NCBI RefSeq assembly: GCF_001984155.1 | Contig: NZ_MTQO01000021.1 | Coordinates: forward strand, 1-64,000 | From: Actinosynnema sp. ALI-1.44 | GTDB taxonomy: Bacteria; Actinomycetota; Actinomycetes; Mycobacteriales; Pseudonocardiaceae | Direction of reading: 5' to 3' | DNA length: 64,000 nt | In this document: positions 22,306 through 38,901 of the stretch, one piece after another | Layout: every line of letters begins with the position of its first letter | Position numbering within the stretch: position 1 is the stretch's first letter | The notes under the pieces: generated by a model | Database searches by the model: none | Seen by the model: the letters and a program-made list of their open reading frames with translations, nothing else | Told to the model about the DNA's origin: nothing | Position numbers and translations under genes: made by a program

Positions 22306-22320
22306 GAAGTGTCATGTGTC

Positions 22321-22350
22321 AAGGGGGTTCGGCCATAGCCGGACCCCCTT
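22321..22350 (+). terminator. Intrinsic-type terminator after the aldehyde dehydrogenase gene
   Basis: AAGGGGGTTCGGC and GCCGGACCCCCTT form a 13-base stem with one G-T wobble around the loop CATA, followed by TTTATC. It separates the aldehyde dehydrogenase transcript from the PKS operon. Confidence 0.8.
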
Positions 22351-22492
22351 TATCGTTTCAGTTGATTGACGGACTCACCATCGTGAGTGTTCGCCCTAGC
22401 GGATGCTGTGGTCCCCGGACAACCATCCCCCGCTCGATGAGAAATTCCCACAAGGGTGTGGACGGCGGTCGGGTTTGTTTGTACGGTGATCG

Positions 22493-22544
22493 GCGTACGA
22501 CAGTCCGTCATCATGTGCCCCCAATGTGCTGGGTCGTCGTACGC
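22493..22544. repeat. Inverted 9-base repeat upstream of the PKS operon
   Basis: GCGTACGAC (22493-22501) and GTCGTACGC (22536-22544) are perfect inverted copies 43 bases apart, each with a CGTACG core, about 160-210 bases before the PKS start. They may be paired operator half-sites; no candidate regulator is adjacent. Confidence 0.4.
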
Positions 22545-22700: not shown

Positions 22701-25700
22701 TTGAGCGCGCTCTCATATCGTGACCTGGTCATCGGCGTCAGCCCGCTCGCCGAGCCCAATGCCGCGCTGGTCGTCGCCGTGGAGCGTGCCGGCGGTCTCG
22801 GCGTGCTCGACCTCGGCCGCGACCGCGCCAAGGCACTGGCGGCGCTCGACCTCGTGCGCCGCAGACTGGGAACCCCGTTCGGTGTCCGCGTCGGGCCCGA
22901 CTGTCCATTGGGGCCGGACGAGCTGCCCGACGACGTCGACGTGATCCTCACACCCCGGCCGATCCCCGGTCTTGGTCCCGTTCGAGGCCGTGGTGTCCTC
23001 GCCGAGGTGACCTCGCTGGACGAGGCGCGTGCCGCAGTCGGACACGGCGCCACCGGCCTGGTCGCGCGTGGCTCGGAATCGGGCGGGCGAGTGGGCGAGT
23101 CGACCACGTTCGTATTGCTGCAACGCCTGGTTGCCGAGTTCGACGTGCCGGTGTGGGCGGCCGGTGGGATCGGCCCGAATACCGCCGCCGCGGCCGTGGC
23201 CGGTGGTGCTCGCGGCGTCGTTCTGGACAGTCAGCTCGCGCTTCTCAGTGAAGTGCGGGATTGTCTCGACGCTGAGCTCGTCACCACTGTTATGGGTATG
23301 GACGGCGCGGATACGACTATTGTCGACGGCCGTCGGGTACTGGCACGTCCCGGCGCTGGTTATGTGGTCGAGATCGGGCAGGACGGCGCGCTGGCCGACG
23401 GTTTGTGGCGGTCTTGCCGCACAGTGGGCGGCGTAGTGCAAATGGTCGGCGAAACCGTGCGCGCCAATCTCGAATCGGCCGCGCGGAATCCGGCGCTGCG
23501 GCCGGGTGGTCCATTCTGCGAGCGCGCGCCGGGACTGCGGTATCCCCTCGCGCAAGGCCCGATGACCCGCGTGAGCGACCAGCCCGCGTTCGCCGCGGCC
23601 GTGGCTGAGGGCGGTGGGTTGCCGTTCCTTGCGCTCTCCTTGATGAACGGCGAGCAGACCCGGTCGCTGTTGACCCGAACAGCCGATCTTCTCGGCGACC
23701 GTCCGTGGGGCATCGGGATGCTCGGTTTCGCCGATCCGGACCTCAGACAGGCCCAGTTGGCCGAGGTCCTCGCGGCGAAACCGCGTTACGCCATCGTGGC
23801 GGGTGGCAACCCCGCGCAGGCCAAAGCCCTTGAGGACGCGGGGATCGAGGCGTACCTGCACGTCCCGTCGCCCGCGTTGCTGCGCAACTTCCTGGACGAC
23901 GGTGCGCGCAAGTTCGTCTTCGAAGGCTGGGAATGCGGTGGTCACACCGGCCCCCGGTCCAGCTTCACCCTGTGGGAGCAGCAGATCTCGGTGCTGCTCG
24001 ACCGGGGATCGCTCGCCGACGTCCGCGTCCTGTTCGCCGGTGGGATCCACGACGAACGCTCGGCTGCGATGGTGTCGGCGATGAGCGCGTCGCTGATCGA
24101 GCGCGGCGCCGCCGTCGGCGCGTTGATGGGCACGGCCTACCTGTTCACCCGTGAGGCTGTCGAGCTCGGCGCGATCACACCGGTGTTCCAGCAGGTGGCA
24201 CTCGAGTGCGCGGAGACAGCGCTGCTGGAGACCTCGCCGGGGCACAGCGTCCGCTGCGCCCAGTCGTCCTTTGTGGACACCTTCGGCGAAGCGAAGGCCG
24301 AGCTGGCGGGCGCGCCGCGCCAGGAGGCGTGGGAACGGCTGGAACAGCTCAACCTCGGCAGGCTGCGGATCGCCAGCCGCGCGCTCAAGCGCGTCGGCGT
24401 CGAGCTCGTCGCGGTCGACGAGGACGAGCAACGCGACACCGGCATGTTCATGATCGGCCAGGTGGCGACGCTGCGGTCCGAGCTGACCGACATCGCCACC
24501 CTGCACGAACAGGTCACCAGCACCGGGTTGGTGCGTGCCAGGCACGCCGAACTGGCGCGTGCGCCGAAGGCGGAGGGCGTCCGGCCGCTGGACGTCGCCA
24601 TCGTCGGGATGGCCGCGATGCTGCCCGGCGCGGGCGACGTGGCACGGTTCTGGAGCAACGTGGTCTCGGGCGCCGACGCGATCCGCGAGGTGCCGTCCGA
24701 CAGGTGGAATCCGGAGCTGTACCAGGGCGCCACCCCGTCGCGGTGGGGCGGTTTTCTCGACCCGGTCCCGTTCGACCCGCTCGCGTACGGCATCCCACCG
24801 GCGTCGCTGACGTCGATCGAACCCGCGCAACTGCTCGCGCTCGAAGCGGCCGCGCGAGCACTGACCGACGCCGGATACCAGACGAGGCAGTTCGACCGTG
24901 ATCGCACGTCGGTGATCTTCGGCGCGGAGGCGGGCGCCGACCTGGCCAACGCCTACACCGTCCGGTCCGCGTTGCCCGCTCTGTTCGGCGGCACACCGGA
25001 CGGGCTCGACGACTTCCTGCCCAAGCTGACCGAGGACTCGTTCCCCGGCGTGCTGGGCAACGTGATCGCCGGGCGGATCGCCAACCGGCTCGACCTCGGC
25101 GGCGCGAACTACACCGTGGACGCGGCGTGCGCGTCCAGCCTCGCCGCGCTTGACGTGGCCTGCAAGGAACTGCGCACGGGCACCAGCGACATGGTTCTGT
25201 GTGGCGCGGTCGACCTGCACAACAGCGCGCACGACTACCTGATGTTCGCCTCGGTGCAGGCTTTGTCGCCCAGTGGCCGGTGCGCCACATTCGACTCGGC
25301 CGCCGACGGCATCGCGTTGGGTGAAGGCGTCGCGTGCGTGGTGCTCAAGCGACTGGCCGACGCCGAACGCGACGGAGACCGGATCTACGCGGTGATCAAG
25401 GGGATCGGCGCGTCCAGCGACGGCAAGTCGTTGGGCCTGACCGCACCCCGGGCTGACGGGCAACGCCGCGCGCTGCGCCGGGCTTACACCTCGGCAGGCG
25501 TGTCCATGGAGGAGGTCGGGCTTGTCGAGGCGCACGGCACCGGCACGGTCGTCGGCGACCGGACTGAACTGGCCGCGTTGACCGAGATGTTCACCGAGGC
25601 CGGTGCGGACACCGCGGGCTGCACGGTCGGCTCGGTGAAATCCCAGATCGGGCACACCAAGTGCGCCGCGGGCCTGGCCGGGCTGATCAAGGCGGCCACG

Positions 25701-28700
25701 GCCGTGCACACCGGCATCCGGCCGGGCACGCTGCACGTCACCGCGCCGAACGCCTACTACCAGAAGGAAACCAGCCCGTTCGCCTTCGGCAGGCGAACCT
25801 GGTCGGCCCCGGCCGGGCAGCGCACCGCGGGTGTCAGCGCGTTCGGTTTCGGCGGTACCAACTTCCACGCCGTCATCACCGGTTACGACGGCGTCGACGA
25901 GCCACGGCACGGCCTGCGGGAATGGCCCGCGGAACTGCTCGTGTTCCGCGGCGCCGACCAGGCCGCCGCACAGCGTGCGGCCGACCGGCTGGCGCGGCTG
26001 GTGCGCGCCAACGATGAGGCGGGCCGCCCACGCGACCTGCGCGACCTGGCGGCCACGGCGGCGGCCATGTCCCCGGGGCAGCCGATCCAGGCAGCGGCTG
26101 TGGTGGAGACCTTCGAGCAGCTGGCCGTTGCGGTGGCCGATGTTCAGGCGTGGCGCGCATCGGATGCCGTCCAGCTGCGCAGCGACGCGACCACGCCGAC
26201 CGTCGCGTTCCTCTACCCGGGCCAGGGCAGCCAGCGGCCGGGCATGCTGCTCGACCTGTTCACCGCGTTCCCCTGGTTGCAGGAAACCCTGCGACTGGCC
26301 GGTGGCCGGTACGAGGACGTCATGTTCCCACCGGCCGCGACGACACCCGACGACGCCGCGCGGCAGAAGGCCGCCATCACCGACACGACCGTCGCCCAGC
26401 CCACGCTGGGCATCGCGGGCCTGGCTGTGACCCGGCTGCTGGAATGGCTCGGCGTCCGGCCGGACATGGCGGGCGGGCACAGCTACGGCGAACTCGTCGC
26501 GTTGACCGCCGCCGGGGTGTTCGAGCCGGAACAACTGCTGGAGCTGAGCGAGGCACGAGCCAAGGCGATCGTGAGCGCGGTCGGGGACGATCCGGGGACC
26601 ATGGCCGCGGTCAGCGGCGCCGTCGACGAGGTCCGCGCGCTCGTCCCGGACGACGTCGTGGTGGCCAACCACAATTCGCCGACCCAGGCGGTGATCTCCG
26701 GCGGCACCGACGCGGTCGCCGAAGCCGTCCGGCGCCTGTCCGGTGCGGGCCTGTCCGCACGGGCGATCCCGGTCGCCGCCGCGTTCCACAGCCCAGTGGT
26801 CGCGCGGGCCGAAGGCGTCTTCGCGGAGGTGCTGGCCACGCAGGAGATCGGCGAACCCGCCATCCCGGTTTGGTCCAATGTGGACGCCCGGCCGCACCGC
26901 GACGTGCGCGCGACGCTGGCCCGTCAGGTCGCAGCCGAGGTCAGGTTCGTCGACCAGATCGAGGCCATGTACGCCGCCGGTGCGCGGGTGTTCGTGGAGG
27001 CGGGACCGGGCTCGGTGCTGACCGGGCTGGTCGGCGGGATTCTCGGCGACCGGCCGTTCACGGCTGTGGCCTGCGACGGCCGTGCCGGGATGGCCGCTTT
27101 CCTGCGCGCGTTGGCCGGGCTCGCCGTCGCCGGTGTGCCGGTGACCGTGACGCCGCTGTTCACCGGCCGGGCCGAACCGGTCCGGCTCGAAGAGATCCCG
27201 GCTCGGCCCCAGTGGTTCGTCGATGGAGGACTCGTGCGTGACATCAACGGCAAGGCGCTCGGTGGCGGCCTGCGCCCGGCCACCGAGCAGCCGCGAATCA
27301 CCATGGCAGGCCAGGCGAACCGCGAAGTGATCGTCAAGGAGTTCCTGGACGGCATGCGGGAAGCCGTTGCCGCGCAACGTGACGTGCTACTCGGCTACCT
27401 CGGCACGGCACCCGCGGCGCCCGCTCCGCTGCCCGCGCCGCATCCGGTCGTCGTGCCGGAGGCCGTTGCGGAACCGGTCCCCGAGCCGCACCGGCCGACA
27501 CTGGACGTCGGCACGGTCGTGCTGGAAACCATCAGCGCGCGCACCGGCTACCCGCCCGAGATGCTGGAACCGGGCCTTGACCTGGAAGCGGACCTGTCGA
27601 TCGACTCGATCAAGCGGACCGAGATCATCGGCGAGCTGGCCACGGCGCTCGGCGTGACCGGCGACGGCGCCGCCGTGGAGGCGCTGACCGGGATCAAGAC
27701 CATCGAGGGCATCGTCGGCTGGTTCACCCGAACCGAACCGGCGCCCGCCCAGGCGAAGATCGGTGACACCCCGGTCCGCCAGGTACCCAGCCTGGTCGCG
27801 ATCGACGCCTGCCCGGCACCCGGTTCGCTGGCGGGCCAGCGGATCCTGATCGTGGACGACGGCGGAGACGTCGGGCTGGAACTGGCCGACCGGATCGAAC
27901 GGCTCGGCGGCACGGCGCACACGACCCAGCACGTCACCACCGTCGACGCCGACTACGTGCTGTACCTGAGCGCGTTGCGTTCGACCGGTGAGCCCACGTT
28001 GCCCGAAGCCTACGAGGAAATCCGCACGAGCCTGCTGTCCGGCGTCAAGGGCTTGATCGTGGCGACCGCGGGTGGCGGGACGTTCGGCTTCGACGAACCG
28101 GAGGACGACCACGAGCCGCTGGACCTCGGCATGCACGGCCTGATCCGCACGGTCGCCGCGGAGTACCCGGACCTGCACGTGCGCGCGGTCGACGTGAGCA
28201 CGAAGGAAAGCCACCGCGTGATCGCGGCGTCCCTGCTGGCCGAGCTGACCACAGTGGACGGACCAGCGGTCGTCGGGCACGCGTCCGGCACACGCCACGC
28301 CATCGAACTCGACACCGCCGAACTCGACACCGAGCTGGCCGGTGACGGGCAGGTGGACCTGGACGAGGACAGCGTGGTGCTGCTGACCGGCGGAGCACGC
28401 GGGATCACGGCACTCGCCGCGATCGAGATGGCCGAGCGGACCGGGTGCCGGATCGAGCTGATCGGCCGGACCGCGCCGCCGAAGGGACCGGAGGACGCGC
28501 GGACAGCCGCCGCGGCGACCGAGGCCGATCTGCGCCGGGCGCTGATCGAGACGGGCCTGACCGACCGCGAGGAGATCGCCACGGCGGCCCGCAAGATCCT
28601 GGCCGAACGCGAGGTCCGGACGACCATGGACGCACTTCGCGCCGCGGCGGCGTCCGTGCGCTACCACGCTTGCGACGTGCAGGACGCCGACGCGGTGCAC

Positions 28701-29174
28701 GCGGTGATCGGTGACATCGTCGGCCGCTTCGGCCGGATCGACGGCGTGGTGCACGGCGCCGGGGTGCTGGACGACAAACTGCTGGCCGACAAGACCCCCG
28801 AGGCGTTCGCCCGCGTGTACAACACCAAGGTCGGCGGCGCGCGGGCCTTGGCGAAGGCGCTGGAGCACGACCCGAAGTTCATGGTGCTGTTCGGCAGCAT
28901 CAGCGGTGTGCTCGGCAACCGCGGCCAGGCCGACTACTCCGCGGCCAACGACACACTGGACCGGATCGCCCGGTTCTGGGCCACCCGGACCAGTGCCCGT
29001 GTGGTGAGCGTCGACTGGGGCCCGTGGGCGGGCAGCGGGATGGCCGCCGGACTGGCCGAAGAGTACGCCCGGCGCGGTATCCGGCTGATCGACCCGGAGG
29101 CGGGCGTCGCGGCTCTGCTGCGCGAGATCGCCATCGGTGACGCGGTCCAGGTGGTCTACCAATGCGCCCGCTAG
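22701..29174 (+). CDS. Iterative type I PKS, PUFA/hglE-like: tandem PfaD-like barrels-KS-AT-ACP-KR
   Basis: 2157-aa synthase. Residues about 5-235 and 279-495 are two nitronate-monooxygenase/PfaD-like TIM barrels (PVWAAGGIGPN; KFVFEGWECGGHTGPRSS), the fold used as enoyl reductase in PUFA synthases. KS from about 631: Cys810 in DAACASS, His945 in EAHGTGT, His985 in IGHTKC. AT about 1165-1470: GQGSQ, Ser1261 in GHSYGE, His1363 in AFHS. One ACP with Ser1636 in LSIDSIKRTE, the form typical of PUFA and heterocyst-glycolipid synthases. KR about 1730-2157: TGGARGIT, Tyr2079. The TTG at 22701 is chosen for its GAGGAGG ribosome site. It overlaps the next gene by 13 bases. Expected role: iterative acyl-chain assembly. 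Confidence 0.88.
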   Translation: MSALSYRDLVIGVSPLAEPNAALVVAVERAGGLGVLDLGRDRAKALAALDLVRRRLGTPFGVRVGPDCPLGPDELPDDVDVILTPRPIPGLGPVRGRGVLAEVTSLDEARAAVGHGATGLVARGSESGGRVGESTTFVLLQRLVAEFDVPVWAAGGIGPNTAAAAVAGGARGVVLDSQLALLSEVRDCLDAELVTTVMGMDGADTTIVDGRRVLARPGAGYVVEIGQDGALADGLWRSCRTVGGVVQMVGETVRANLESAARNPALRPGGPFCERAPGLRYPLAQGPMTRVSDQPAFAAAVAEGGGLPFLALSLMNGEQTRSLLTRTADLLGDRPWGIGMLGFADPDLRQAQLAEVLAAKPRYAIVAGGNPAQAKALEDAGIEAYLHVPSPALLRNFLDDGARKFVFEGWECGGHTGPRSSFTLWEQQISVLLDRGSLADVRVLFAGGIHDERSAAMVSAMSASLIERGAAVGALMGTAYLFTREAVELGAITPVFQQVALECAETALLETSPGHSVRCAQSSFVDTFGEAKAELAGAPRQEAWERLEQLNLGRLRIASRALKRVGVELVAVDEDEQRDTGMFMIGQVATLRSELTDIATLHEQVTSTGLVRARHAELARAPKAEGVRPLDVAIVGMAAMLPGAGDVARFWSNVVSGADAIREVPSDRWNPELYQGATPSRWGGFLDPVPFDPLAYGIPPASLTSIEPAQLLALEAAARALTDAGYQTRQFDRDRTSVIFGAEAGADLANAYTVRSALPALFGGTPDGLDDFLPKLTEDSFPGVLGNVIAGRIANRLDLGGANYTVDAACASSLAALDVACKELRTGTSDMVLCGAVDLHNSAHDYLMFASVQALSPSGRCATFDSAADGIALGEGVACVVLKRLADAERDGDRIYAVIKGIGASSDGKSLGLTAPRADGQRRALRRAYTSAGVSMEEVGLVEAHGTGTVVGDRTELAALTEMFTEAGADTAGCTVGSVKSQIGHTKCAAGLAGLIKAATAVHTGIRPGTLHVTAPNAYYQKETSPFAFGRRTWSAPAGQRTAGVSAFGFGGTNFHAVITGYDGVDEPRHGLREWPAELLVFRGADQAAAQRAADRLARLVRANDEAGRPRDLRDLAATAAAMSPGQPIQAAAVVETFEQLAVAVADVQAWRASDAVQLRSDATTPTVAFLYPGQGSQRPGMLLDLFTAFPWLQETLRLAGGRYEDVMFPPAATTPDDAARQKAAITDTTVAQPTLGIAGLAVTRLLEWLGVRPDMAGGHSYGELVALTAAGVFEPEQLLELSEARAKAIVSAVGDDPGTMAAVSGAVDEVRALVPDDVVVANHNSPTQAVISGGTDAVAEAVRRLSGAGLSARAIPVAAAFHSPVVARAEGVFAEVLATQEIGEPAIPVWSNVDARPHRDVRATLARQVAAEVRFVDQIEAMYAAGARVFVEAGPGSVLTGLVGGILGDRPFTAVACDGRAGMAAFLRALAGLAVAGVPVTVTPLFTGRAEPVRLEEIPARPQWFVDGGLVRDINGKALGGGLRPATEQPRITMAGQANREVIVKEFLDGMREAVAAQRDVLLGYLGTAPAAPAPLPAPHPVVVPEAVAEPVPEPHRPTLDVGTVVLETISARTGYPPEMLEPGLDLEADLSIDSIKRTEIIGELATALGVTGDGAAVEALTGIKTIEGIVGWFTRTEPAPAQAKIGDTPVRQVPSLVAIDACPAPGSLAGQRILIVDDGGDVGLELADRIERLGGTAHTTQHVTTVDADYVLYLSALRSTGEPTLPEAYEEIRTSLLSGVKGLIVATAGGGTFGFDEPEDDHEPLDLGMHGLIRTVAAEYPDLHVRAVDVSTKESHRVIAASLLAELTTVDGPAVVGHASGTRHAIELDTAELDTELAGDGQVDLDEDSVVLLTGGARGITALAAIEMAERTGCRIELIGRTAPPKGPEDARTAAAATEADLRRALIETGLTDREEIATAARKILAEREVRTTMDALRAAAASVRYHACDVQDADAVHAVIGDIVGRFGRIDGVVHGAGVLDDKLLADKTPEAFARVYNTKVGGARALAKALEHDPKFMVLFGSISGVLGNRGQADYSAANDTLDRIARFWATRTSARVVSVDWGPWAGSGMAAGLAEEYARRGIRLIDPEAGVAALLREIAIGDAVQVVYQCAR

Positions 29175-32100
29175 ACGTCGCCATCGTCGGGATGGGGGCG
29201 TTGTTCCCCGGTGCGGACGACACGCCGGGGTTCTGGCGCAACATCGCCGGATCGGTCGACGCGATCGGCACGATCCCGGCGCACCGCTGGGACCCGGACG
29301 TCCACTACGACCCGTCGGCGAGCCCGGCCAGTGACCGGTTCTACTGCAGGCGAGGCGGTTTCCTCGACGAGCAGGCCGTGTTCGACCCGACCAGGTTCGG
29401 CATCATGCCGTCCACAGTGGATGACGCCGAACCGGACCAGCTGCTCGCACTCGGGGTGGCCGCCGAGGCGATCGCGGACGCGGGCGGCGAGCAGGCGTTG
29501 CCGGACCGGGCCAGGATCGGTGTCGTCGTCGGCAGGGGCGGCTACCTCACCCCCGGCTGCGCGCGGCTCGACCAGCGGGTCCAGGTGGGGCAGCTCATCT
29601 CGGTCGTCAAGGACCTCATCCCCGGTGTGGACACGGCCGCGTTGCGGGAAGCCATCCGGGCACGGCTCGGCCCGGAGCAGCCGGAGGCGTCCATCGGCCT
29701 CGTGCCGAACCTGGCCGCGTCCCGGATCGCCAACCGGTTCGACCTGCGCGGCGCGGCATACACAGTGGACGCCGCGTGTGCGTCCGGCCTGGTCGCGGTC
29801 GAGCACGCCGTCCGCGAGCTGGCCTCGGGCCGGTGTGACGCGGTGCTCGCCGGTGCGGTGCACGTGTCGCACCACCCGACGTTGTGGAGCGTGTTCACGC
29901 AACTGCGGGCGCTCAGTCGCAAGGAACAGATCCGCCCGTTCGACCGTGCGGCGGACGGGACTCTGCTGTCCGAAGGCGTCGGCATGGTGCTGCTCAAGCG
30001 TTTGCGTGACGCCGAAGCGAGCGGTGACCGGATCTACGCCGTGATCCGCGGCGTCGGCACGGCCAGCGACGGCCGCGCGACCAGCATGATGACACCCAAC
30101 CCGGACGGCCAGCTGCTGGCCGTGCGGCGGGCATGGCAGGACGCGGGGCTGGAACCCGGCGAGGGCCTTGGCCTGATCGAGGCGCACGGGACCGCGACCC
30201 CAGCCGGTGACGCGGCCGAGCTGACGACCATGATCACCGCGTTCGGCGGCGGCGGTGCTCCCGTCGGCATCGGCACGGTCAAGTCCATGATCGGCCACGC
30301 GATGCCCGCGGCCGGGATGGCCGGGCTGATCAAGGCCGCGCTCGCTGTGCACCACGCGACCCTGCCGCCCACCCTGCACATCGACGATCCCCACCCCGCC
30401 ATGACCGGCACCCGGTTCGCGCCCGTCGTCGAGCCGAGGGCGTGGGAGGGACCACGTCGGGCGGGTGTGAACGCGTTCGGCTTCGGCGGGATCAACGCGC
30501 ACGTCGTGCTCGAGCAGACCGGTGATTCCCGCGCGGTCGACGTGAACCCGCTCGCGCCTGTCCTGCTGCTGTCGGCCAACTCGCCGGAGGACCTGGAACG
30601 GGAACTGCTGGCCGACGACGGCGACCTGATCGGCCGCGCCGCGCGCCGGGTCAGGGCCGATGACCTGCCGTGCCGCCTGGCGATCTGGCAGCCGGACGCC
30701 CGCAGGCTCAAGATCGCGCGGCAGGTCGTGGCCAGGGGCAGGAAGTGGACCGGCAGGCACGACATCTGGTTCTCGCCCCGGCCGTTGCTGACCGGCGACG
30801 ACCAGATCGCCTTCCTGTTCCCCGGGTTCGAGCAGCGCGGCACGGCCGAGCTCGCGGGCGAGGAGTCCGTCGTCGAGCACGCACTGGACTTGCTGCGAGC
30901 AGGCCGCAGGCAGGCGAACAAGCTGCGCGAAGCCGGGATCGTGCCGAGCGCCATGGCCGGGCACAGCATGGGGGAGTGGACCGCGATGATCGTCGCGGGG
31001 ATCTACCCCACGATCGACGAGTTCGTCGACTCGTTGCGGCCGGGCATGGTCGCGGTGGCCGACGTCGTCTACGCCGCACTCGGCTGTTCCGCCGAGAAGG
31101 CGCAGGCCGTGCTGAACGAACTGACTGGGCCGGCGGACGTGGTGATCAGCCACGACAACTGCCCGCACCAGTCGGTGATCTGCGGTCCGGCGGACCACCT
31201 GGCCACGGCCGTGGCCAGCCTGAAGGAACACGGCGTGATGGCGCAGATCATGCCGTTCCGCACCGGCTTCCACACCCCGGCGCTGGCCCCGCACCTCGCG
31301 GCGGCCCGCGCGACCGTCGAAGCCCTCGCGGTGCACCCGCCGTCCATCCCGGTCTGGTCGGCCACCTCACTCGCCCCGATGCCCGGCGACCCGGCCGGGA
31401 TCAGGGAACTCGTTCTGCGGCACCTCGTCGAACCCGTCCGGTTCCGGCCGTTGCTGCACCGCCTGCACGCGAGCGGAATCCGGGCCTTCGTCCAGGTCGG
31501 CCCCGGCAGCCTGCCCGGGTTCGTCGAGGACACCCTCGGCGGCGAGCAGTTCGTGACCATCGCGGGCGACGACGAACACCGAGCCGCGTCGGCACTGTGG
31601 GCTTTCGGACTGAACCGGCCCACACGGGGCAGGAAGCTGTCGCTCGGTCTCACACCGGTCCGGCTCGACCCGATCTCGATCGACCAGCCCGTCGCGGTGG
31701 ATGTGAGCACACCCGTGGGCGCGGCCTTGAACGCCGTGCTCACGCAGACCACAGCGGTGGCCCGAGAAGTGGCCCTGGCTTTGGCGGAGCCTGTTCCGGC
31801 AGGATCCGAGCGGGCCGAGGTCTTCTCGTTGCGGACGATGCCGTACCTGGTGGACCACTCGGTGTTCCCCCAGGCGGAGGGGTGGCCGGACCCGTCGGAC
31901 GGGTTCCCGATCGTGCCGATCACCGGCCTCGCCGACGTGATCAAGGACGCTGCCCGCGCGCTCGTGCCCGGTGGTGTCGTGACCGCGGTCGAATCGGTCA
32001 AGGCGATCCGGTGGCTGGAAGTCGAACCGGCACAAGAGGTCCGGATCACCGCCGAGCGGGACGGCGACCTCGTCCGCGTCCGCGTCGCCGGGTACGCCGA

Positions 32101-33109
32101 AGGGCTGGTCCGGATCGAGGCCGCGTACCCCATGCCGGACGAGCCGGTTTACCCGCCGTTGCGGGCACCGCGCCCCGCGCCGGTGTCGGCGGCCGAACTG
32201 TACGACGACGGCTGGATGTTCCACGGTCCCCGGTTCGCCGGGGTCAGCGAGATCACCACACTGGCGGACAACGGGATCACCGGCGCGCTGACCGTCCTGC
32301 CGTCGCCCGGCGCGCTGCTGGACTGCGCGGGCCAGCTGATCGGGCACTGGATGCAGGTCAGCAAGGACGTCGACCAGACCGTGCTGCCCACCGGCATCGA
32401 CCGGGTCCGGTACTACGGACCCGATCCCGAGCCGGGCACGCGGATCGACTGCGACGCGCGGATCGTGGAAGTCACCGACGAGGTCATGCGCGCGGACGCG
32501 CGGTTGCGGACCGCGGACGGCAGGCTGTGGTGCCGCGTCGACGGGTGGACGACCCGCCGGTTCACCACCGACGACCGGATCTGGCAGGTCAAACTCCGCG
32601 CCGAGCACAACACCCTGGCCGAGCCGCGCGACGGCGGCTGGGTGCTCGTCACCGAGAAATGGGCCGACGACAGCGCGACCCGGGAACTGATGGCGCGCAG
32701 GTACCTGACCGCGGCCGAACGGGCCGGTTACGCCACTTTGGACCTGCGGACCCGGCGCCAGTGGCTGCTGCGCCGGATCGCGGCCAAGGACGCGGTCCGG
32801 CGCTGGCTGTGGAACCGCGGCGCCGGTGCGATCTTCCCCGCCGAGTTGACCGTCGCCGACGACGGCACCGAGGTCCGGGTCCGCGGCGCGTTCGCGACGC
32901 CGAAGGTCTCGGTCGCGCACTGCGCCGACCCCGGCAGACCGTCGGCAGCGGGCTGCGCGGTCGCCATCGCGGGCGACGGCGACGTGGTGATCGACATCAG
33001 ACCCGGCACGGCGGCCACCCCGGGCGGTGCCGTCGTCACGGGCCAAGGAACGTCCTATGTGGTCGAATGGCAGACGGGAGAGCGGCGTGTCCGAACCGAA
33101 CGTGCTTGA
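29162..33109 (+). CDS. Second PKS subunit: KS-(short AT)-DH with C-terminal PPTase-like remnant
   Basis: 1315-aa partner synthase. The KS has Cys206 (DAACASG), EAHGTATPAG and MIGHAMPAAG and looks active. The AT keeps Ser602 (GHSMGE) and His704 (FHTPAL), but the usual GQGSQ is FPGFEQR and the stretch to the active Ser is about 40 residues shorter than normal. A double-hotdog DH has His899 in VDHSVF and Asp1054 in DCAGQLIGHW. After about residue 1190, RRIAAKDAVRRWL and VSVAHC...VVIDIRP recall a phosphopantetheinyl transferase that ends before its WxxKEA helix and has Arg in place of the metal-binding Glu. It begins inside the first PKS gene and overlaps the ACP gene by 23 bases. Confidence 0.83.
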   Translation: MRPLDVAIVGMGALFPGADDTPGFWRNIAGSVDAIGTIPAHRWDPDVHYDPSASPASDRFYCRRGGFLDEQAVFDPTRFGIMPSTVDDAEPDQLLALGVAAEAIADAGGEQALPDRARIGVVVGRGGYLTPGCARLDQRVQVGQLISVVKDLIPGVDTAALREAIRARLGPEQPEASIGLVPNLAASRIANRFDLRGAAYTVDAACASGLVAVEHAVRELASGRCDAVLAGAVHVSHHPTLWSVFTQLRALSRKEQIRPFDRAADGTLLSEGVGMVLLKRLRDAEASGDRIYAVIRGVGTASDGRATSMMTPNPDGQLLAVRRAWQDAGLEPGEGLGLIEAHGTATPAGDAAELTTMITAFGGGGAPVGIGTVKSMIGHAMPAAGMAGLIKAALAVHHATLPPTLHIDDPHPAMTGTRFAPVVEPRAWEGPRRAGVNAFGFGGINAHVVLEQTGDSRAVDVNPLAPVLLLSANSPEDLERELLADDGDLIGRAARRVRADDLPCRLAIWQPDARRLKIARQVVARGRKWTGRHDIWFSPRPLLTGDDQIAFLFPGFEQRGTAELAGEESVVEHALDLLRAGRRQANKLREAGIVPSAMAGHSMGEWTAMIVAGIYPTIDEFVDSLRPGMVAVADVVYAALGCSAEKAQAVLNELTGPADVVISHDNCPHQSVICGPADHLATAVASLKEHGVMAQIMPFRTGFHTPALAPHLAAARATVEALAVHPPSIPVWSATSLAPMPGDPAGIRELVLRHLVEPVRFRPLLHRLHASGIRAFVQVGPGSLPGFVEDTLGGEQFVTIAGDDEHRAASALWAFGLNRPTRGRKLSLGLTPVRLDPISIDQPVAVDVSTPVGAALNAVLTQTTAVAREVALALAEPVPAGSERAEVFSLRTMPYLVDHSVFPQAEGWPDPSDGFPIVPITGLADVIKDAARALVPGGVVTAVESVKAIRWLEVEPAQEVRITAERDGDLVRVRVAGYAEGLVRIEAAYPMPDEPVYPPLRAPRPAPVSAAELYDDGWMFHGPRFAGVSEITTLADNGITGALTVLPSPGALLDCAGQLIGHWMQVSKDVDQTVLPTGIDRVRYYGPDPEPGTRIDCDARIVEVTDEVMRADARLRTADGRLWCRVDGWTTRRFTTDDRIWQVKLRAEHNTLAEPRDGGWVLVTEKWADDSATRELMARRYLTAAERAGYATLDLRTRRQWLLRRIAAKDAVRRWLWNRGAGAIFPAELTVADDGTEVRVRGAFATPKVSVAHCADPGRPSAAGCAVAIAGDGDVVIDIRPGTAATPGGAVVTGQGTSYVVEWQTGERRVRTERA

Positions 33110-33374
33110 CGAGGTGGTCCGGCTGATCGTCGACGTCGTCGGCGAGGACGTGCTCGTCGGTGTGGAGATCACCCCGGAGACGACCTTCAGCGACGACCTC
33201 GGCCTGGAGAGCATCGAGTTCGTCGCGCTCGCGGACAAGCTGCGCGAGCGGTACGGCGACCGGGTCGACCTGGTGGCGTTCCTCGGCGAGATGGACATCG
33301 ACGAGATCATGGCGATGACCGTCGGCAGGCTCGTCGACCACATCGCCGCCCAGCCCGTCCCGAGCACCGGCTGA
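33087..33374 (+). CDS. Stand-alone acyl carrier protein
   Basis: 95-aa carrier protein with phosphopantetheine-attachment Ser42 in DDLGLESIEFV and the usual four-helix pattern. The GTG at 33087 has GGGAG seven bases upstream and lies within the end of the second PKS gene. It may carry the finished chain to the hydrolase or glycosyltransferase, or supply a starter, separately from the in-line ACP of the first subunit. Confidence 0.88.
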   Translation: MSEPNVLDEVVRLIVDVVGEDVLVGVEITPETTFSDDLGLESIEFVALADKLRERYGDRVDLVAFLGEMDIDEIMAMTVGRLVDHIAAQPVPSTG

Positions 33375-33377
33375 CCC

Positions 33378-34162
33378 GTGGCCGAGATCCACGCCCGCGG
33401 CCTGAAGTTCCACGTCCAGCAACTGGGAGCCGAGAACACCGGGCCCACAGTCGTGTTCGTGCACGGCCTCGTGATGGACAACCTGTCCAGCTTCTACTAC
33501 ACGCTGGCCGCGCCGCTGGCCAAGGCGGGCGTCCGCACGATCCTGTTCGACCTGCGCGGGCACGGCATGTCCGCCCGGCCGGAATCCGGCTACTCCCCGC
33601 GGGACAGCGCGCTCGACCTGGTGGCGATCCTGGACGAACTCGGCGTCGACCAACCGGTTCACCTGCTGGGCAACAGCTACGGCGGTGTGGTCGCGATGCA
33701 CGCGGCGCTCAAGGCCGCCCACCGGGTGGCCGGTGTGGTCGTGGTGGAGGCGGCGTGCGCGGGCGTTCCGGGGAGCTGTGGGTGGAGGACATCGTCAACA
33801 CGCTCAGCGTCGCCGCGCTGGGCCTGGAATACGACCGGACTGGCGAGCAGTTGCTGAAACTCGGTCAGCGCAAGGTCGCGAAGCTTGCCAACAACGCGGA
33901 CGCGCTGCTCAACCGGACCTCGCTGATCGACGACCTCGTGGCGGGGGCGTTGCTGTCCGAGGCGGATCTCACCCAGGTCGGCTGTCCCGTGCTCGGCGTG
34001 TTCGGCGCGGAGTCGGAACTGGCGGGCGCGGCGGCGGATCTCGACCGGTTCGTCCCCGACTGCGAGACGCACGTCATCCCCGGCCTCGGGCACACCGTCC
34101 TGCGCGAGGCCACCGGTGAACTGATTCAGCGCGTGCTCACGTGGTTGGAGAAGCACTCGTGA
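33378..34162 (+). pseudogene. Alpha/beta hydrolase (thioesterase-like), frameshifted
   Basis: Alpha/beta-hydrolase whose frame breaks between about 33750 and 33790. The first part holds the oxyanion region (VVFVHGL), FDLRGHGMSA and nucleophile Ser100 in LLGNSYGGVV. The second frame holds the acid-loop region VLGVFGAESEL and the catalytic His in PGLGHTVLRE. Together they give about 260 aa, full length for the family; one base appears lost in the GC-rich run near 33755. It starts 3 bases after the ACP stop and its end overlaps the glycosyltransferase start, so a chain-release or editing role for the PKS is likely. Whether the break is real or a read error cannot be told. Confidence 0.75.
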
Positions 34163-35295
34163 CCCGGTTCCTGTTCGTCGTGCCGCCGTTGACCGGGCAC
34201 GTCAACCCGACGGTCGGTGTCGGCGGGGAGTTGCTCTCCCGTGGCCACGATGTCGCGTGGGTCGGTCACCCGGCGACGCTGGAACCGTTGCTGCCGCCGG
34301 GTTCCCGGATCTACCCCGCGCTGGATGACCGGCTGGAAGCGGACATCAGGGAAGCGCGGCAGCGGTGGCTTGAGCTCAAAGGCATCGCGGTGCTGAAGTT
34401 CCTGTGGGAGGAGTTCCTGATCCCGCTCGCGCACGCGATGATCCCCGGTGCCCACGACGCGGTGAAGCACTTCCTGCCGGACGTGCTCGTCGCCGACCAG
34501 CAGGCGTTGGCCGGGCCGATCGTGGCCGGTGATCTCGGTGTGCCGTGGGTGACCAGTGCGAGCACACCGGCCGAGTTGATCCGTCCGCTCAAGAGCATGC
34601 CGAAGGTCGACGAGTGGGTCACCGCGCAGCTGCGCGAGCTCAGCCGGTCTGATGTGGACATCCGGTTCTCCGAGTTGCTGGTGCTGGTGTTCACCTCGCC
34701 GCTGCTCGTCGGCGAGACCTTCCCGCCGCACTACGCCTTCACCGGGCCCGCGTTGGCGCACCGGCCGGAGCCGACCGGGTTCCCCTGGGAATGGCTGGCC
34801 CCGGATACGCGTAAAGTACTGGTGTCGCTGGGAACGCTGAACGGTGCCGCCGGGCACAGGTTCTTCGGCGAGGTGGTCGAAGCGGTCACGGACATGCCGG
34901 ACGTGCAGGTGGTCATGGTCGCCCCGCCTCTCAGCGTGCCGCGCAATGTTCTTGTGCGAGAACGTGTTCCGCAGCTGGCGCTGATGGAACACATGCACGC
35001 GGTGATCTCGCACGGCGGGCACAACACTGTCTGCGAGGCGCTGGCGCACGGACTTCCGCTTGTGGTGGCGCCGATCCGGGACGACCAGCCGATCATCGCC
35101 GACCAGGTCGTGTCCGCCGGTGCGGGGATACGCCTGAAGTACCAACGGGTCCGCGCCGAAGAGATCCGCTCGGCGCTGGACAGCGTGCTGTACGACCCCG
35201 GCTTCGCGGCCAACGCGCGCCGGGTGCGGGAGTCCTTCCGGCTCGGTGGCGGCGCCCGTGCCGCCGCCGATCGACTCGAGGCGGTGGCGGCGTGA
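34159..35295 (+). CDS. GT-B glycosyltransferase, MGT/UGT-like (GT1)
   Basis: 378-aa nucleotide-sugar-dependent glycosyltransferase. The N-terminus (TRFLFVVPPLTGHVNPTVGV) is the acceptor domain with a GHVNP motif; the C-terminal donor domain has HGGHNTVCEALAHGLPLVV (from His285) and DDQPIIADQVV. Relatives add sugars to macrolides, flavonoids or lipids. In this operon the likely acceptor is the PKS-made chain, which would make a glycolipid. GTG start with GGAGAAG upstream, overlapping the hydrolase stop (GTGA). Confidence 0.87.
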   Translation: MTRFLFVVPPLTGHVNPTVGVGGELLSRGHDVAWVGHPATLEPLLPPGSRIYPALDDRLEADIREARQRWLELKGIAVLKFLWEEFLIPLAHAMIPGAHDAVKHFLPDVLVADQQALAGPIVAGDLGVPWVTSASTPAELIRPLKSMPKVDEWVTAQLRELSRSDVDIRFSELLVLVFTSPLLVGETFPPHYAFTGPALAHRPEPTGFPWEWLAPDTRKVLVSLGTLNGAAGHRFFGEVVEAVTDMPDVQVVMVAPPLSVPRNVLVRERVPQLALMEHMHAVISHGGHNTVCEALAHGLPLVVAPIRDDQPIIADQVVSAGAGIRLKYQRVRAEEIRSALDSVLYDPGFAANARRVRESFRLGGGARAAADRLEAVAA

Positions 35296-37097
35296 TCGCG
35301 TGGATCCTGTTCGGCTTGGTGGTTGCCTGGACGCTGCTGGATGCCCTGCGCCTGCGGGGAAAGGCGAACCAGTTGGCGGTGCTGCCCGAACTGGGCGGTG
35401 ATCGCGGGGATTTCCAGTCCTACCCCCAGGACCTGGCCGACGGCGTGCGGCAGCGGGCGGTCGCGTTCGCCCGGATCGGGAACCTCGGCCTCGTCGATCT
35501 CGTCCCGGCCACCCTCCCGACCGTCGCCGCGGTCGACCTGCTCAACCAGGTCAACCCCAGGACCTACCGGACGGGACGCTGGGAGCGCGGAATCAGCGCC
35601 GGTGTGGCGATCCTGTTCGACCCCAAGGCCGTCAAGGGCCTCGGCATCACGCCACCGGCCGACCCCACGGAGTTCATCTCCGTGGCACGGCGTGTGAAGG
35701 ACCGCGACGGCGTCAGCGTCGACCTGGCGGTCTCCCGCGACCTGCCCGCCGGTCCGTACGACCTGTCGACGCGGGCGGCCCGGTTGCGCAAGCTGGGCAA
35801 GCGCCCCGCGCTGTGGACGGCCGGATCCGTACTCGGGTATCTCGCGGTTCTCGGTGTCACCCTCTGGACGTGGCCGTGGGGGTTGATCGCGGCAGGTCTC
35901 TACAGCCTCCAGCCGCTGCTGGCGTTCGCCGGCACCCCGTTGCGACCCAGGGACCTGTGGCTGACGTCGGTGTTCCGCGTGGCCTACCAGCCGTACCTGT
36001 GGGTCAGGACGCTGGCCGGGCGGTGGCGCACGGCAGCGGAGATCCAGCAGGAGAAGGACATGCTGGCCGCTGTCCCGGCGTACGCCGACGAGATCGAGCG
36101 CGGCACCGAGCGGTTCTTCGAGCCGCGCAGGCAGGACTGCCCGTCCTGTTCGAGCACGTCGTTGGCGCGGCACGTCCGCAGCGTCGACCTGGTGCAGCGC
36201 AAACCGGGCGAGTTCACCATGGACCGCTGTGTCTCGTGTGGACTCGTCTTCCAGAACCCCCGGTTGTCCACGGCGGGACTGGACTTCTACTACCGGGACT
36301 TCTACGACGGCCACGGCGCCGCCGCGGCCGAAGCCGTGTTCTCCGGCAAGCCCGAGCCGTACTACGACCGAGCCAGGATGGTCCAGCCGTTCACCACGCC
36401 ACGCACCTGGCTGGACGTCGGCGGCGGACACGGGCACTTCTGCCGCGGTGCCAAGGAGATACTGCCCGGCACCCGGTTCGACGGGCTCGACCAGGGCGCG
36501 GCCATCGAGGACGCGGAGACGCTCGGCTGGGTCACCCGCGGGTACCGGGGCAACTTCAAGGACTTCGCCGACGGGTTGCGCGGCCGGTACGACGTGATCA
36601 GCATGCACCACTACCTCGAGCACGTCCGTGACCCGTGGGAGGAGTTGGACATCGTCGCGGACACGCTGCCGGACGGCGGATACCTGCTGATCGAGGTGCC
36701 GGACCCGGAATGGCGGCTGGCCAAGCTGTTCGGCAGGTACTGGATGCCGTGGTTCCAGCCGCAGCACCAGAACATGCTGCCGATCGGCGTTCTGAAGAAG
36801 GCGCTGGCGGAGCGCGGCCTACGCCCGGTTGCCGAGGAACGCGCCCAAGCGCACCAGTGCAACGACTTCGCCCTGTCGAGTTACCTGATGCTCGCCGACA
36901 TCGCGCCGCGCTCACCGGCGCCGTGGCGTCCGGGCAAGCCGAAGGTCAAGGGGTTGCGCAGCCTGGTCGTGTGGTCTTTCGGCATCCCGTGGCTTGTGGT
37001 GGCCGGGCTGCTGGACAAGACGATCAACCGGGCCATCGCCAACCGAAGCGACTGCGGCAACGCCTACCGCGTGCTGGCGCACAAGGAGACCGAATGA
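35292..37097 (+). CDS. Membrane-anchored SAM methyltransferase with unknown N-terminal half
   Basis: 601-aa protein. A transmembrane helix at residues 2-20, an unrecognised soluble stretch (25-165), and one or two membrane segments at about 173-215 precede the C-terminal methyltransferase. The latter begins with a zinc-ribbon-like C283-x2-C286 ... C313-x2-C316 and has SAM motif I DVGGGHGHF (from Asp375) and an HHYLEHVRDPWEEL segment typical of Methyltransf_23. The N-terminal layout (helix, soluble part, paired helices) could be a worn-down GT2-type glycosyltransferase, but its DxD-type motifs are absent. GTGA overlap with the glycosyltransferase and ATGA overlap with the next gene. Probably methylates the sugar or lipid at the membrane face. 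Confidence 0.75.
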   Translation: MIAWILFGLVVAWTLLDALRLRGKANQLAVLPELGGDRGDFQSYPQDLADGVRQRAVAFARIGNLGLVDLVPATLPTVAAVDLLNQVNPRTYRTGRWERGISAGVAILFDPKAVKGLGITPPADPTEFISVARRVKDRDGVSVDLAVSRDLPAGPYDLSTRAARLRKLGKRPALWTAGSVLGYLAVLGVTLWTWPWGLIAAGLYSLQPLLAFAGTPLRPRDLWLTSVFRVAYQPYLWVRTLAGRWRTAAEIQQEKDMLAAVPAYADEIERGTERFFEPRRQDCPSCSSTSLARHVRSVDLVQRKPGEFTMDRCVSCGLVFQNPRLSTAGLDFYYRDFYDGHGAAAAEAVFSGKPEPYYDRARMVQPFTTPRTWLDVGGGHGHFCRGAKEILPGTRFDGLDQGAAIEDAETLGWVTRGYRGNFKDFADGLRGRYDVISMHHYLEHVRDPWEELDIVADTLPDGGYLLIEVPDPEWRLAKLFGRYWMPWFQPQHQNMLPIGVLKKALAERGLRPVAEERAQAHQCNDFALSSYLMLADIAPRSPAPWRPGKPKVKGLRSLVVWSFGIPWLVVAGLLDKTINRAIANRSDCGNAYRVLAHKETE

Positions 37098-37981
37098 TCG
37101 ATCTGGCGGACAGGCCGGACGTGGCACCGGAGCTTCGTCTTGTGCCCCATGCCTTCCGTGAGGCGTTCGGCCGCTCGGCCGAAGGCGTCTGGTACGCGCC
37201 CGGTGTGGTGGCTCTGACATCCGAACTGGCGGTGTGCGGGCGGTGGGGTGCGATCGTCGCGGGCGAACGGCGGACCGACGGCGTCATCGAACTGCGGTCC
37301 ATCAACAAACCAGCGGAACCCGTTGTCCTGCCGACGGAGGACGTTCCCGCGTGGGCTCTGCCCGTTGCCAACGTGGTCGATGCGTTGCGTCCCTGCGGAG
37401 CGACGCTGCTGTGCAGTGTGGACCTTCCCGCGGGCGCAGGGCTTTCCGCGCGGACCGCGTTGGCGTGCGCGGCGGCGCTGGCATTGCGTGACCTGTGCGA
37501 CCCGGATATTCCACTCGACTATCTCGTGGACGTCGTCACGCGATCCCACGCGCAATTGCATTCGCACGTTCGCGTCGAAGCGGCATTCGCCGGATACGAA
37601 GTCGGTGTCGCTTTGGGTGATGCGCGGCTGCTGATCGTCGACACCAGGATCCGCCGCGACACGCCAGCCCGACTGGCGGATTTCGCGATGCCCGACAGCG
37701 GATCGCCCGGACGACTCGGGCCGGCGCTGACCGAATTCCACCGCGCCCAGCAACCCGAAGCGGCGCAGGACATCGCGGTGACCGCGGCGGTCGAAGCCGG
37801 TGCGCTCGGCGCAACGATGCTGGTCGACGAGCCCGGCAGGCCGATCGCCGCACTCGTGAGGCCAGAATCGCTCGCCGCGGTTCGCGCCGGTGTTTCCGGT
37901 GCTTTCCGGCGGGAACGGCTGACCGCGCCGAGGTACCTCACCATCCGCCCGAGTCAGGGGGCAAGAAGAATCACCCCATAA
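37094..37981 (+). CDS. Degenerate galactokinase-like GHMP protein (probable pseudokinase)
   Basis: 295-aa protein with the order of GHMP motifs but eroded residues. APGVVALTSE (from Ala35) stands where galactokinases have APGRVNLIGEHTDY. GAGLSAR (114-120) replaces the ATP loop GAGLSSS. The Met-Asp-Gln segment carrying the catalytic Asp is FAGYEVGVAL. EAGALGATMLVDEPG (about 233-247) corresponds to the third motif. It is about 90 residues shorter than a true galactokinase. A non-catalytic sugar- or nucleotide-binding or scaffold role is possible. Last gene of the PKS operon, joined by an ATGA overlap with AAGGAG upstream of its start. No hairpin is obvious after it. Confidence 0.7.
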   Translation: MIDLADRPDVAPELRLVPHAFREAFGRSAEGVWYAPGVVALTSELAVCGRWGAIVAGERRTDGVIELRSINKPAEPVVLPTEDVPAWALPVANVVDALRPCGATLLCSVDLPAGAGLSARTALACAAALALRDLCDPDIPLDYLVDVVTRSHAQLHSHVRVEAAFAGYEVGVALGDARLLIVDTRIRRDTPARLADFAMPDSGSPGRLGPALTEFHRAQQPEAAQDIAVTAAVEAGALGATMLVDEPGRPIAALVRPESLAAVRAGVSGAFRRERLTAPRYLTIRPSQGARRITP

Positions 37982-38058: not shown

Positions 38059-38901
38059 ATGACTCGGGGTGAGGAATCGCCGGATGTACGGGACGCACCT
38101 GCCCGTGTCAACATCGCCAGGGCGAGCATCACCCGGGTCTACGACGCGTTGCTCGGCGGCAAGGACAACTTCCAGGTCGACCGGGACGTGATGGCCCGCT
38201 TCCTCAGGCTGGACCCGGAGTTCGTCCGGGTCGTGCGGGACCGGCGCGACTTCATCATGCGGGCCACCCGCTACCTGGCCGGGCAGCGCGGCGTGACCCA
38301 GTTCCTCGATGTCGGCGCGACCTTGCCGGAGAAGGACAACCCGCACGACGTCGCGCAACGCCTCAACCGGGAAGCGACCATGGTCTACGCCTCCATGGAC
38401 CCGGGCGTGCTCGCGCACGGCCGTGCGCAGGTCGCCGACAACGACCGGACTCACATGGCGGAAGCGGACTTCCGCAACCCGCGGCAGATGGTCGAGCACC
38501 CGGTCGTGGCCAAGCACCTGAACTTCGACGAGCCCGTGGCCCTGTTCATCGTGAGCACGTTGCAGCACGTCCGTCCCGAAAAGGACCCCGCGGGGATCAT
38601 GGCCGGATACGTCGACCTGCTCGCACCCGGTTCCTATGTGGTCTTCGGGCACTGGACCGACCCGGGACCCAGTGATCCGCAACTGTCCCAACTGGCCCGT
38701 GACCTCAACGGTGTCTACCGCGACGCCGGTGTCGGCGCGTGGCCGCGGTCCCGTGACGAGATCGAAGGCATGCTCGCCGGACTGGAGCTGCTCGATCCCG
38801 GCTTGGCGATCTGCGCCGACTGGTGGCCGGACGGCCCCCGGCTGCACCCGCTCGCCCCCAGCCAGCGCCTGGCGCTCGGCGCGGTCGGCGTCAAACGCTG
38901 A
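38059..38901 (+). CDS. SAM-dependent methyltransferase, former DUF574 family
   Basis: 280-aa protein of the actinobacterial Methyltransf_19 group. Hallmarks: VNIARASITRVYDALLGGKDNF near the N-terminus, QFLDVGATLP at the SAM site (family DxGxGLP; here Ala replaces Gly), YASMDPGVLAHGRA and a C-terminal DWWPDGP segment. These proteins are very abundant in filamentous actinobacteria and mostly of unknown substrate. It begins 77 bases after the PKS operon on the same strand and may have its own promoter; membership of the PKS pathway is uncertain. Confidence 0.82.
   Translation: MTRGEESPDVRDAPARVNIARASITRVYDALLGGKDNFQVDRDVMARFLRLDPEFVRVVRDRRDFIMRATRYLAGQRGVTQFLDVGATLPEKDNPHDVAQRLNREATMVYASMDPGVLAHGRAQVADNDRTHMAEADFRNPRQMVEHPVVAKHLNFDEPVALFIVSTLQHVRPEKDPAGIMAGYVDLLAPGSYVVFGHWTDPGPSDPQLSQLARDLNGVYRDAGVGAWPRSRDEIEGMLAGLELLDPGLAICADWWPDGPRLHPLAPSQRLALGAVGVKR

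Follow-up and report, generated by a model that had tools for sequence, protein, structure and literature searches.

Among the synthase types catalogued by Shulse and Allen (2011; PMC3098273), Type P makes chains of C22-26, and Type M, whose product is given there as uncharacterised, is listed in Frankia, Actinosynnema, Renibacterium and Streptomyces avermitilis. The phosphopantetheinyl transferase (PPTase) associated with Type M is of the hShxH kind and in their tree sits with those of Types M-T, Types A-L having (F/S)NxSH; the main text of that paper gives no hit for glycosyl- or methyltransferase. ArsA, of the Type P pair ArsA/ArsD from Azotobacter vinelandii, makes C23-C25 acids (PMC4824345). 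Here we describe an operon in a stretch of 64,000 nucleotides (the window) from the 11.7 Mb genome of the actinobacterium Actinosynnema sp. ALI-1.44 (contig NZ_MTQO01000021.1, positions 1 to 64,000). Its seven genes, all on the + strand between 22629 and 37981 and either overlapping or a few bases apart, encode two polyketide synthases (PKS1 and PKS2), a free acyl carrier protein (ACP), a hydrolase, a glycosyltransferase (GT), a membrane methyltransferase and a galactokinase-like protein. We conclude that this is a real, conserved and probably glycolipid-forming cassette, and a better defined variant of an already catalogued synthase type.

Phylogeny of the ketosynthases

To place the synthase, we compared its ketosynthase (KS) domains with those of reference pathways. 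In a tree of 78 rows, the 35 KS rows from PKS1-type proteins (KS1) formed one clade (100/99), with the single Type P row as its sister (99/95) and the PfaA-like rows next (96/90); the enediyne synthase SgcE, modular KS domains and the PfaC KS were placed elsewhere, and 14 rows from PKS2-type proteins (KS2) formed a separate clade (100/99). The KS1 and KS2 labels follow gene position, not profile score, and KS1 is truncated in many loci; the PfaA-like rows, unnamed or uncharacterised, were assigned by domain content and not by tested function. KS1 of the window was 61-95% identical to other KS1 domains, 55% to Type P of Beijerinckia, 38-50% to PfaA-like domains and 37% to SgcE. KS1 of the cassettes from Frankia strains QA3 and AgB32 also lay inside the KS1 clade. 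A second tree, to which the Type P-like Methylosinus locus L198 and the alphaproteobacterial locus L199 were added, again gave one KS1 clade (31 rows, 100/98), with L199 joining KS1 (99/89) and Type P next (100/96 for the three together), although the bootstrap remained unsettled. The KS of PKS1 lies outside all reference pathways in the tree, and the nearest characterised type is the phenolic-lipid type ArsA/ArsD (Type P).

Accordingly, a modular PKS was rejected by the tree and by domain content, an enediyne PKS because KS1 did not group with SgcE, and a strict polyunsaturated fatty acid (PUFA) synthase because KS1 fell outside the PfaA-like clade, domain content arguing against the last two as well. 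An earlier note on this DNA had proposed a lipid-type iterative synthase, neither modular nor enediyne, and had called for a KS phylogeny; with PfaA-like, PfaC and SgcE references, this phylogeny agreed with the proposal and set KS1 in a clade of its own, outside characterised pathways. The note's placing of the synthase near PUFA and heterocyst-glycolipid synthases was not borne out for PUFA, the tree having Type P as the nearest characterised type; PKS2 has a PPTase remnant and no chain-length factor. None of five cyanobacterial plasmid records examined could be identified as HglE. Separately, L199, on a plasmid of Rhodobacteraceae SC52, carries at 7892-22511 a related synthase together with a TauD-type dioxygenase, a methyltransferase and a protein resembling an acyltransferase (AT)-dehydratase (DH)-PPTase fusion.

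Conservation and distribution of the cassette

A scan with the methyltransferase gave 123 loci; in the stretches fetched for the best 80 of them, a GT was present in 70 and PKS parts in 62. Because this set is biased, we drew up another (set A) of 32 loci found by synthase queries: 17 from relatives, seven from genomes reached via the methyltransferase, six from Myxococcota and two from plasmids. Set A counts loci and not genomes (three come from G026 and two each from G029 and G060, and the proteins of the two plasmids have accessions in common); it excludes L149, L151, L152 and L191, which are short or of another type, and L153-L159, which duplicate loci of the methyltransferase scan or the genus. 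Some named loci repeat a G-labelled genome (for example L003/L010 and L008/L036). The ketoreductase (KR) was found in all 32 loci, the second barrel of PKS1 in 31, the DH in 30, the hydrolase in 28, and the ACP and the GT in 27 each, and the GT was still present in 20 of 25 loci after removing the seven methyltransferase-picked genomes. Conversely, the methyltransferase occurred in 12 loci and the galactokinase-like protein in two. The core of the cassette consists of PKS1, PKS2, ACP, hydrolase and GT, whereas the other two genes are optional and therefore not pathway-defining. The recurrence of this gene order across bacterial orders, together with its tight packing, excludes chance.

All parts named in the earlier note (the ACP form, PfaD-like barrels, KS-AT-ACP-KR and KS-AT-DH subunits, free ACP, hydrolase, GT, methyltransferase and galactokinase-like protein) are present, the domains being assigned by Pfam and NCBIfam profiles. 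The neighbourhood survey that it suggested recovered the core in synthase-found loci, in keeping with its view of the GT as a regular part of the pathway; its inclusion of methylation and of a dead kinase in the pathway fits the window, where both genes are present, but not the cassette at large.

With KS-AT of PKS1 as query (E <=1e-200), PKS1 was detected in 50 of the 120 genomes sampled from the family of the window, Pseudonocardiaceae, covering 19 of 46 genera, and in at least 10 of 396 genomes of Actinomycetota, counting the window genome in both cases. Eight of 140 Myxococcota genomes, one of them a methyltransferase-chosen centre, had a match at 52-61% identity; the next matches, among those listed, reached at most 47% when long and at most 50% when short and limited to the KS. 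PKS2 was present in all eight genus members (73-100% identity), named records of Kibdelosporangium (L009, L011-L013) showed 65-89% identity per cassette part, and the Frankia genomes QA3 and AgB32 carry the cassette plus other PfaA-like synthases. A record titled Rhodococcus rhodnii NRRL B-16535 (L010) contains a Kibdelosporangium-like cassette (73-88% identity per part); for PKS2 the record has the same figures as G003, a genome of the same genus as the window, and its name looks wrong.

Organization of the operon and PKS1

The features of the operon are collected in Table 1.

Table 1. Genes and domains of the cassette in the window
Feature	Coordinates	Strand	Evidence and remarks
PKS1, 2181 aa	22629..29174	+	barrel 1 (GGR)-barrel 2 (GGH)-KS-AT-ACP-KR; Pfam/NCBIfam, motifs, KS tree; start codon unsure
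KS1	24591..25739	+	active site DAACASS; Pfam/NCBIfam and motif
AT1	26208..27023	+	GHSYGE and AAFHS; Pfam/NCBIfam and motif
ACP1, single	27519..27716	+	LSIDSIKRTE; Pfam/NCBIfam and motif
KR	28374..29030	+	GSISG...DYSAAN; Pfam/NCBIfam and motif
PKS2, 1315 aa	29162..33109	+	KS (DAACASG)-AT (GHSMGE)-DH-PPTase remnant
DH region of PKS2 (PS-DH)	31799..32611	+	YLVDHSVF, LLDCAGQL
Truncated Sfp-type PPTase, PKS2 tail	32660..33106	+	PF01648 (14.3 bits, cut-off 25) and tail alignment
Free ACP	33087..33374	+	Pfam; open reading frame (ORF) opens at 33027, start codon unsure
Alpha/beta hydrolase	33378..34162	+	GNSYGG; Pfam; two frames, break at ~33760-33860
GT-B glycosyltransferase, MGT/UGT-like	34141..35295	+	ISHGGHNTVCEALAHGLPLVVAPIRDDQ; Pfam/NCBIfam, PDB; start perhaps 34159
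Membrane methyltransferase	35292..37097	+	Methyltransf_23, N-terminal domain of ~250 aa, conserved cysteines, three hydrophobic stretches
Galactokinase-like pseudokinase (GHMP-like)	37094..37981	+	GHMP fold match, kinase motifs absent

PKS1 contains the Pfam domains NMO, ketoacyl-synt N and C, Acyl_transf_1, PP-binding and KR, with DLSIDSIKRTEII as its ACP motif; the start used in the earlier note, at 22701, is preceded by the stretch GAGGAGGA. Its best NCBIfam match was TIGR02813 (PfaA), with 847 bits and under the cut-off of 1010.1. In the window, the KS, AT, KR, DH and second enoyl reductase (ER) barrel retain their catalytic motifs, and ACP1 retains its own. GGR in the first barrel takes the place of the canonical GGH of the second, and on this motif the first barrel is probably inactive. 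GGH was found in all 34 distinct PKS1-type frames, a set that takes in Beijerinckia Type P and, in some cases, the same genome more than once, whereas the first barrel has mostly another residue, but His in L126. The barrel profiles NMOa and NMOb were made from one sequence each, and low counts with strict motif patterns (KR 12/34, KS Cys 28/34, GT 0/101) were not read as losses.

PKS2 and its PPTase tail

Pfam identified one KS, an AT and one DH (PS-DH) in PKS2, and the domain scan showed no chain-length factor or second KS-like domain; in the comparison loci L104, L108, L183 and L184 we did observe a second KS-like domain, weaker than the first, such as a chain-length factor would give. The earlier note was right about KS, AT and DH but missed what follows them: the C-terminal ~150 residues correspond to the N-terminal half of a PPTase of the Sfp type, of which many other members also have the catalytic half. 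A plain KS-AT-DH protein was rejected on account of this remnant. With a profile of the PKS2 tail, we obtained a match to the DH-PPTase protein encoded in the Type P cluster of Beijerinckia, and the tail of that protein scores 57.8 bits with PF01648.

The tail of the window retains RIAAKDAVRRW and VSVAH, and has lost GIDIE and RxWxAKEA. In an alignment of 20 tails, KDAxR was invariant and the H of VSxAH at least 90% conserved. GIDIE and RxWxAKEA are present in most longer tails and absent in the window, its genus, Lentzea, Umezawaea, Amycolatopsis suaedae and Actinocrispum. Pattern searches over 95 distinct tails found the N-terminal motif in 82 and, with a loose pattern that gives upper values, both catalytic motifs in at most 39 and GIDIE in at most 57. 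VSVAH of the window conforms to the P1b' motif hShxH, for which a strict pattern gave an H-ended match in 58 of 113 tails; at the P1a position, x(G/D)xP, many of the 20 aligned tails have GRP, and the truncated copy of the window has no such P. Since the built-in PPTase is decayed, a PPTase from elsewhere would be needed, and a protein encoded outside the cassette, the one PF01648 match at E <=0.001 in the window genome and over the cut-off, is a candidate activator of the cassette ACPs.

Hydrolase, glycosyltransferase and methyltransferase

The hydrolase of the window is split across two frames (33378-33857 and 33755-34162), with 159 aa up to the stop. Among the 111 loci passing the score cut, several of which repeat one genome and in which the window copy is entered twice (WIN and L001), only the window copy was short, the others having at least 248 aa; the hydrolase of L141, under that cut, also looks broken. 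The break is not shared by the genus relatives; a sequencing error or a recent mutation may account for it. In L141 and L144, the hydrolase, DH, AT or GT is split over frames, as in decaying copies or assembly errors.

The GT matched TIGR01426, a macrolide-type family, with 176 bits (cut-off 260), and its PDB matches include YjiC, oleandomycin GTs and CalG2. The hydrophobic stretches of the methyltransferase comprise residues 1-19, 173-191 and 557-575. As annotated, the copies on two Streptomyces plasmids, typed as mobilizable, comprise the core and a 355-aa methyltransferase that lacks the N-terminal domain. Homologues of the methyltransferase in L066, L067, L073, L077 and L085 had no synthase part in the stretch examined.

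The galactokinase-like pseudokinase

The last protein of the operon scored 27.1 bits with PF00288 (GHMP_kinases_N; cut-off 22.3) and matched galactokinases of the PDB weakly (best E 8.4e-5); 17 of 19 relatives matched the GHMP N-domain at E <=1, and six the C-domain. Galactokinases bind their substrate with GEHTDY and have GGGFGG as glycine motif. In the PDB alignment the GEHTDY region is a gap and GGGFGG stands opposite VDEPGRP, and both motifs were absent, by eye, from all 27 cassette proteins aligned, which span Kibdelosporangium, Lentzea, Umezawaea, Actinomadura, Streptomyces and others. Kinase activity was rejected because both motifs are missing, and the dead kinase of the earlier note is thus a conserved one. 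An ordinary galactokinase, over the cut-off, is encoded elsewhere in the window genome (L185). The role of the pseudokinase is likely structural or regulatory; that it is a partner of the GT is our guess.

Neighbouring genes

In G010, the GT gene is followed, without a change of strand and after 141 bp, by genes for an AMP-ligase, a small protein, an ATP-binding cassette (ABC) ATPase, a pair of MlaE permeases and Mce proteins. G022 and G026 have mce lipid-transport operons within ~5 kb downstream, with other ORFs between, and G015 has relatives of the ligase, small protein and ATPase up to the contig end. L130 (G022) and L139/L142 (G015, G026) are apart in the KS tree, and therefore the mce neighbourhood may have arisen more than once. 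Operons of mce genes are common in Pseudonocardiaceae, and their adjacency may be a chance neighbourhood. No accessory family recurred in more than 11 of 45 loci, the top one being an ABC ATPase family.

Upstream of PKS1, an aldehyde dehydrogenase is encoded at 20845-22305 (+), as it is in G002 (L159). Immediately 3' of the operon, at 38059-38901 (+), lies an S-adenosylmethionine (SAM) methyltransferase gene (PF04672), matched among the named loci only in the genus and Actinocrispum, and probably unrelated to the cassette. Further away, at 8082-10364 (+), a protein of 760 aa combines a winged-helix start with a YcaO domain (PF02624, 341.7 bits). The second cassette of G003 (L140) has at 6653-9211 a GH13 enzyme and a major facilitator superfamily transporter in the GT position, with no free ACP detected. 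In the myxococcal locus L187 (12843-17328), a hydrolase identified by Pfam precedes two frames that overlap and resemble nitrogenase component 1, and after these comes a radical SAM protein.

Proposed product and alternatives

On balance, and with some reserve, we favour a glycolipid cassette whose basis is an iterative type I synthase of the ArsA/ArsD kind. The sequence itself shows which genes the operon has, how their domains are ordered, the motifs and their conservation, where the KS is placed, and the decay of PPTase and kinase; the length and state of the chain, the order of steps, the sugar, the methylation site and the envelope location we infer. Judging from the protein families and from ArsA, KS1 would condense malonyl units, and the KR, the DH of PKS2 and the second barrel would then carry out a reduction, a dehydration and a further reduction. 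The chain would be very long and mostly reduced or hydroxylated, with a length probably above C20 if ArsA is a guide. As a guess, KS2-AT2 and the free ACP might serve a special priming or a final extension that leaves an oxygen function. The hydrolase would release or transfer the chain, the GT would attach a sugar from a nucleoside diphosphate sugar and, in this genus, the membrane methyltransferase would cap the sugar or the chain end, with the pseudokinase as a non-catalytic helper, perhaps of the GT. The ACPs would be activated by a PPTase encoded elsewhere. In favour of this proposal are the intact motifs, the placement of KS1 next to Type P, the tandem barrels and the one-protein DH-PPTase of Beijerinckia Type P, the regular presence of GT, ACP and hydrolase in set A, the mce operons 3' of the cassette in G010, G022 and G026 (a partial set in G015) and the ABC exporters near L127 and L144.

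Several observations weigh against this proposal. No GT was detected in five loci of set A (L134, L140, L187, L190 and L192); L190 ends at a contig end, no PKS2 was found in L192, and L134 and L140 have no GT 3' of the hydrolase. MlaE/Mce genes were found only at L130, L136, L142 and their extensions among the loci scanned (>8 kb), and the window operon has neither mce genes nor an exporter. L199 is a long branch of unsure placement between KS1 and Type P. The Type P row of the tree is the Beijerinckia homologue, the characterised ArsA of Azotobacter not being among the rows, and Beijerinckia, yet classed as Type P, is one in which phenolic lipids have not been found, Azotobacter being the characterised member. 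The hydrolase is broken in the window assembly, and, as the earlier note also held, we found no characterised product for this gene set in the open-access literature searched. Moreover, GTs of the MGT type often act on soluble macrolides, and therefore the product need not be a lipid.

This last point leads to a diffusible glycosylated polyketide (an antibiotic, a signal or the like), for which the GT would provide self-protection or activity and methylation would be tailoring. The likeness of the GT to macrolide-type enzymes, the cassettes on mobilizable-typed plasmids and the ABC exporters downstream of L127 and L144 all suit such a product; however, the KS is nearest to a fatty-acyl synthase type, the reductive set is complete, the cassette is kept in every genus member and no shared tailoring set is visible over the 45 loci, although most accessory ORFs are unannotated, so that we consider this product unlikely, if well worth keeping in mind. 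We think it very improbable that the operon encodes a PUFA or heterocyst-glycolipid-like synthase in the strict sense: the top NCBIfam match, the ACP form and the PfaD-type ER point that way, but the window has a single ACP, one PKS-type DH, a fused ER, no second KS-like domain in PKS2 and no thioester reductase in its seven genes, and KS1 is outside the PfaA-like clade. Equally hard to sustain, and if anything slightly more so, is a decaying, non-functional copy, as the broken hydrolase, half-lost PPTase and dead kinase might suggest. The truncation of the PPTase and the loss of kinase motifs are common to relatives with open frames, and are therefore old and tolerated, whereas the other motifs are intact and the frame break, not seen in genus relatives, may be a sequencing error.

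Extending the glycolipid proposal, we tentatively suggest, as a possibility short of an even chance, that an envelope glycolipid of a class so far unrecognised is common to actinobacteria of the Pseudonocardiaceae and to several further lineages. It would be a glycoside with a very long acyl or hydroxyacyl chain, the product of a synthase of the ArsA/ArsD type that has an additional KS-AT; some genera would handle it with an Mce transporter, and in others a pseudoenzyme derived from a galactokinase would act as partner of the GT.

Relationship to known systems

The synthase of the cassette is probably Type M of Shulse and Allen (PMC3098273), as far as the main text of that paper describes it: the two agree in taxa (including the two Frankia genomes), in the hShxH motif of the PPTase and in their place beside Type P. 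The pathway that the earlier note called likely new is thus so in its gene set and glycolipid reading, but its synthase class had most probably been catalogued already in 2011. With its constant core (synthase, ACP, hydrolase and GT) and its kinship to the phenolic-lipid type, this widespread group gives Type M a concrete, testable product class, and the graded loss of the built-in PPTase and the conserved pseudokinase are tractable questions of enzyme evolution. Such clusters are likely to be among the ones that have no known product and receive the label 'hglE-KS' or 'PUFA' in routine genome mining, and these hits should not be read as PUFA or heterocyst glycolipid. In Lentzea, 15 of 692 clusters are reported as hglE-KS (PMC9120177), and these may or may not include the cassette; in nodules the 'polyketide synthase' FRAAL4072 of Frankia alni, which may or may not belong to it, is 4.56-fold overabundant (PMC8951365).

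The enediyne PKS (SgcE, L102) shares an iterative KS-AT-ACP-KR core with the cassette, but its KS is distant and the DH of the cassette is on a second protein. The PUFA synthase PfaABCD is alike in its iterative KS-AT-ACP-KR and PfaD-type ER; it differs in having a KS-chain-length factor, tandem ACPs (one in PKS1 of the window) and two PKS-type DHs instead of one, the ER being fused in the cassette. The heterocyst glycolipid (Hgl) system, in which a long-chain synthase and a GT lead to a glycolipid, serves as our working analogy, although the cassette is set apart by domain content: it has no KS-chain-length factor-AT, and it has a hydrolase and a DH (KS-AT-DH of PKS2), with no thioester reductase among its seven genes by Pfam. 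Closest by KS is Type P (ArsA/ArsD of A. vinelandii; Beijerinckia indica L101), which likewise has tandem PfaD-like barrels before KS-AT-ACP-KR and a DH joined to an Sfp-type PPTase in one protein, truncated in the window. The Type P-like clusters L101 (23069-27692) and L198 also adjoin a glycosyltransferase and export genes of the ABC/RND-adaptor kind. Unlike the cassette, Type P includes type III PKSs, encoded in between its other genes and not found by Pfam among the seven cassette genes, and it has no second KS-AT; the cassette instead has a KS-AT fused ahead of the DH-PPTase, together with a free ACP, a hydrolase and a GT.

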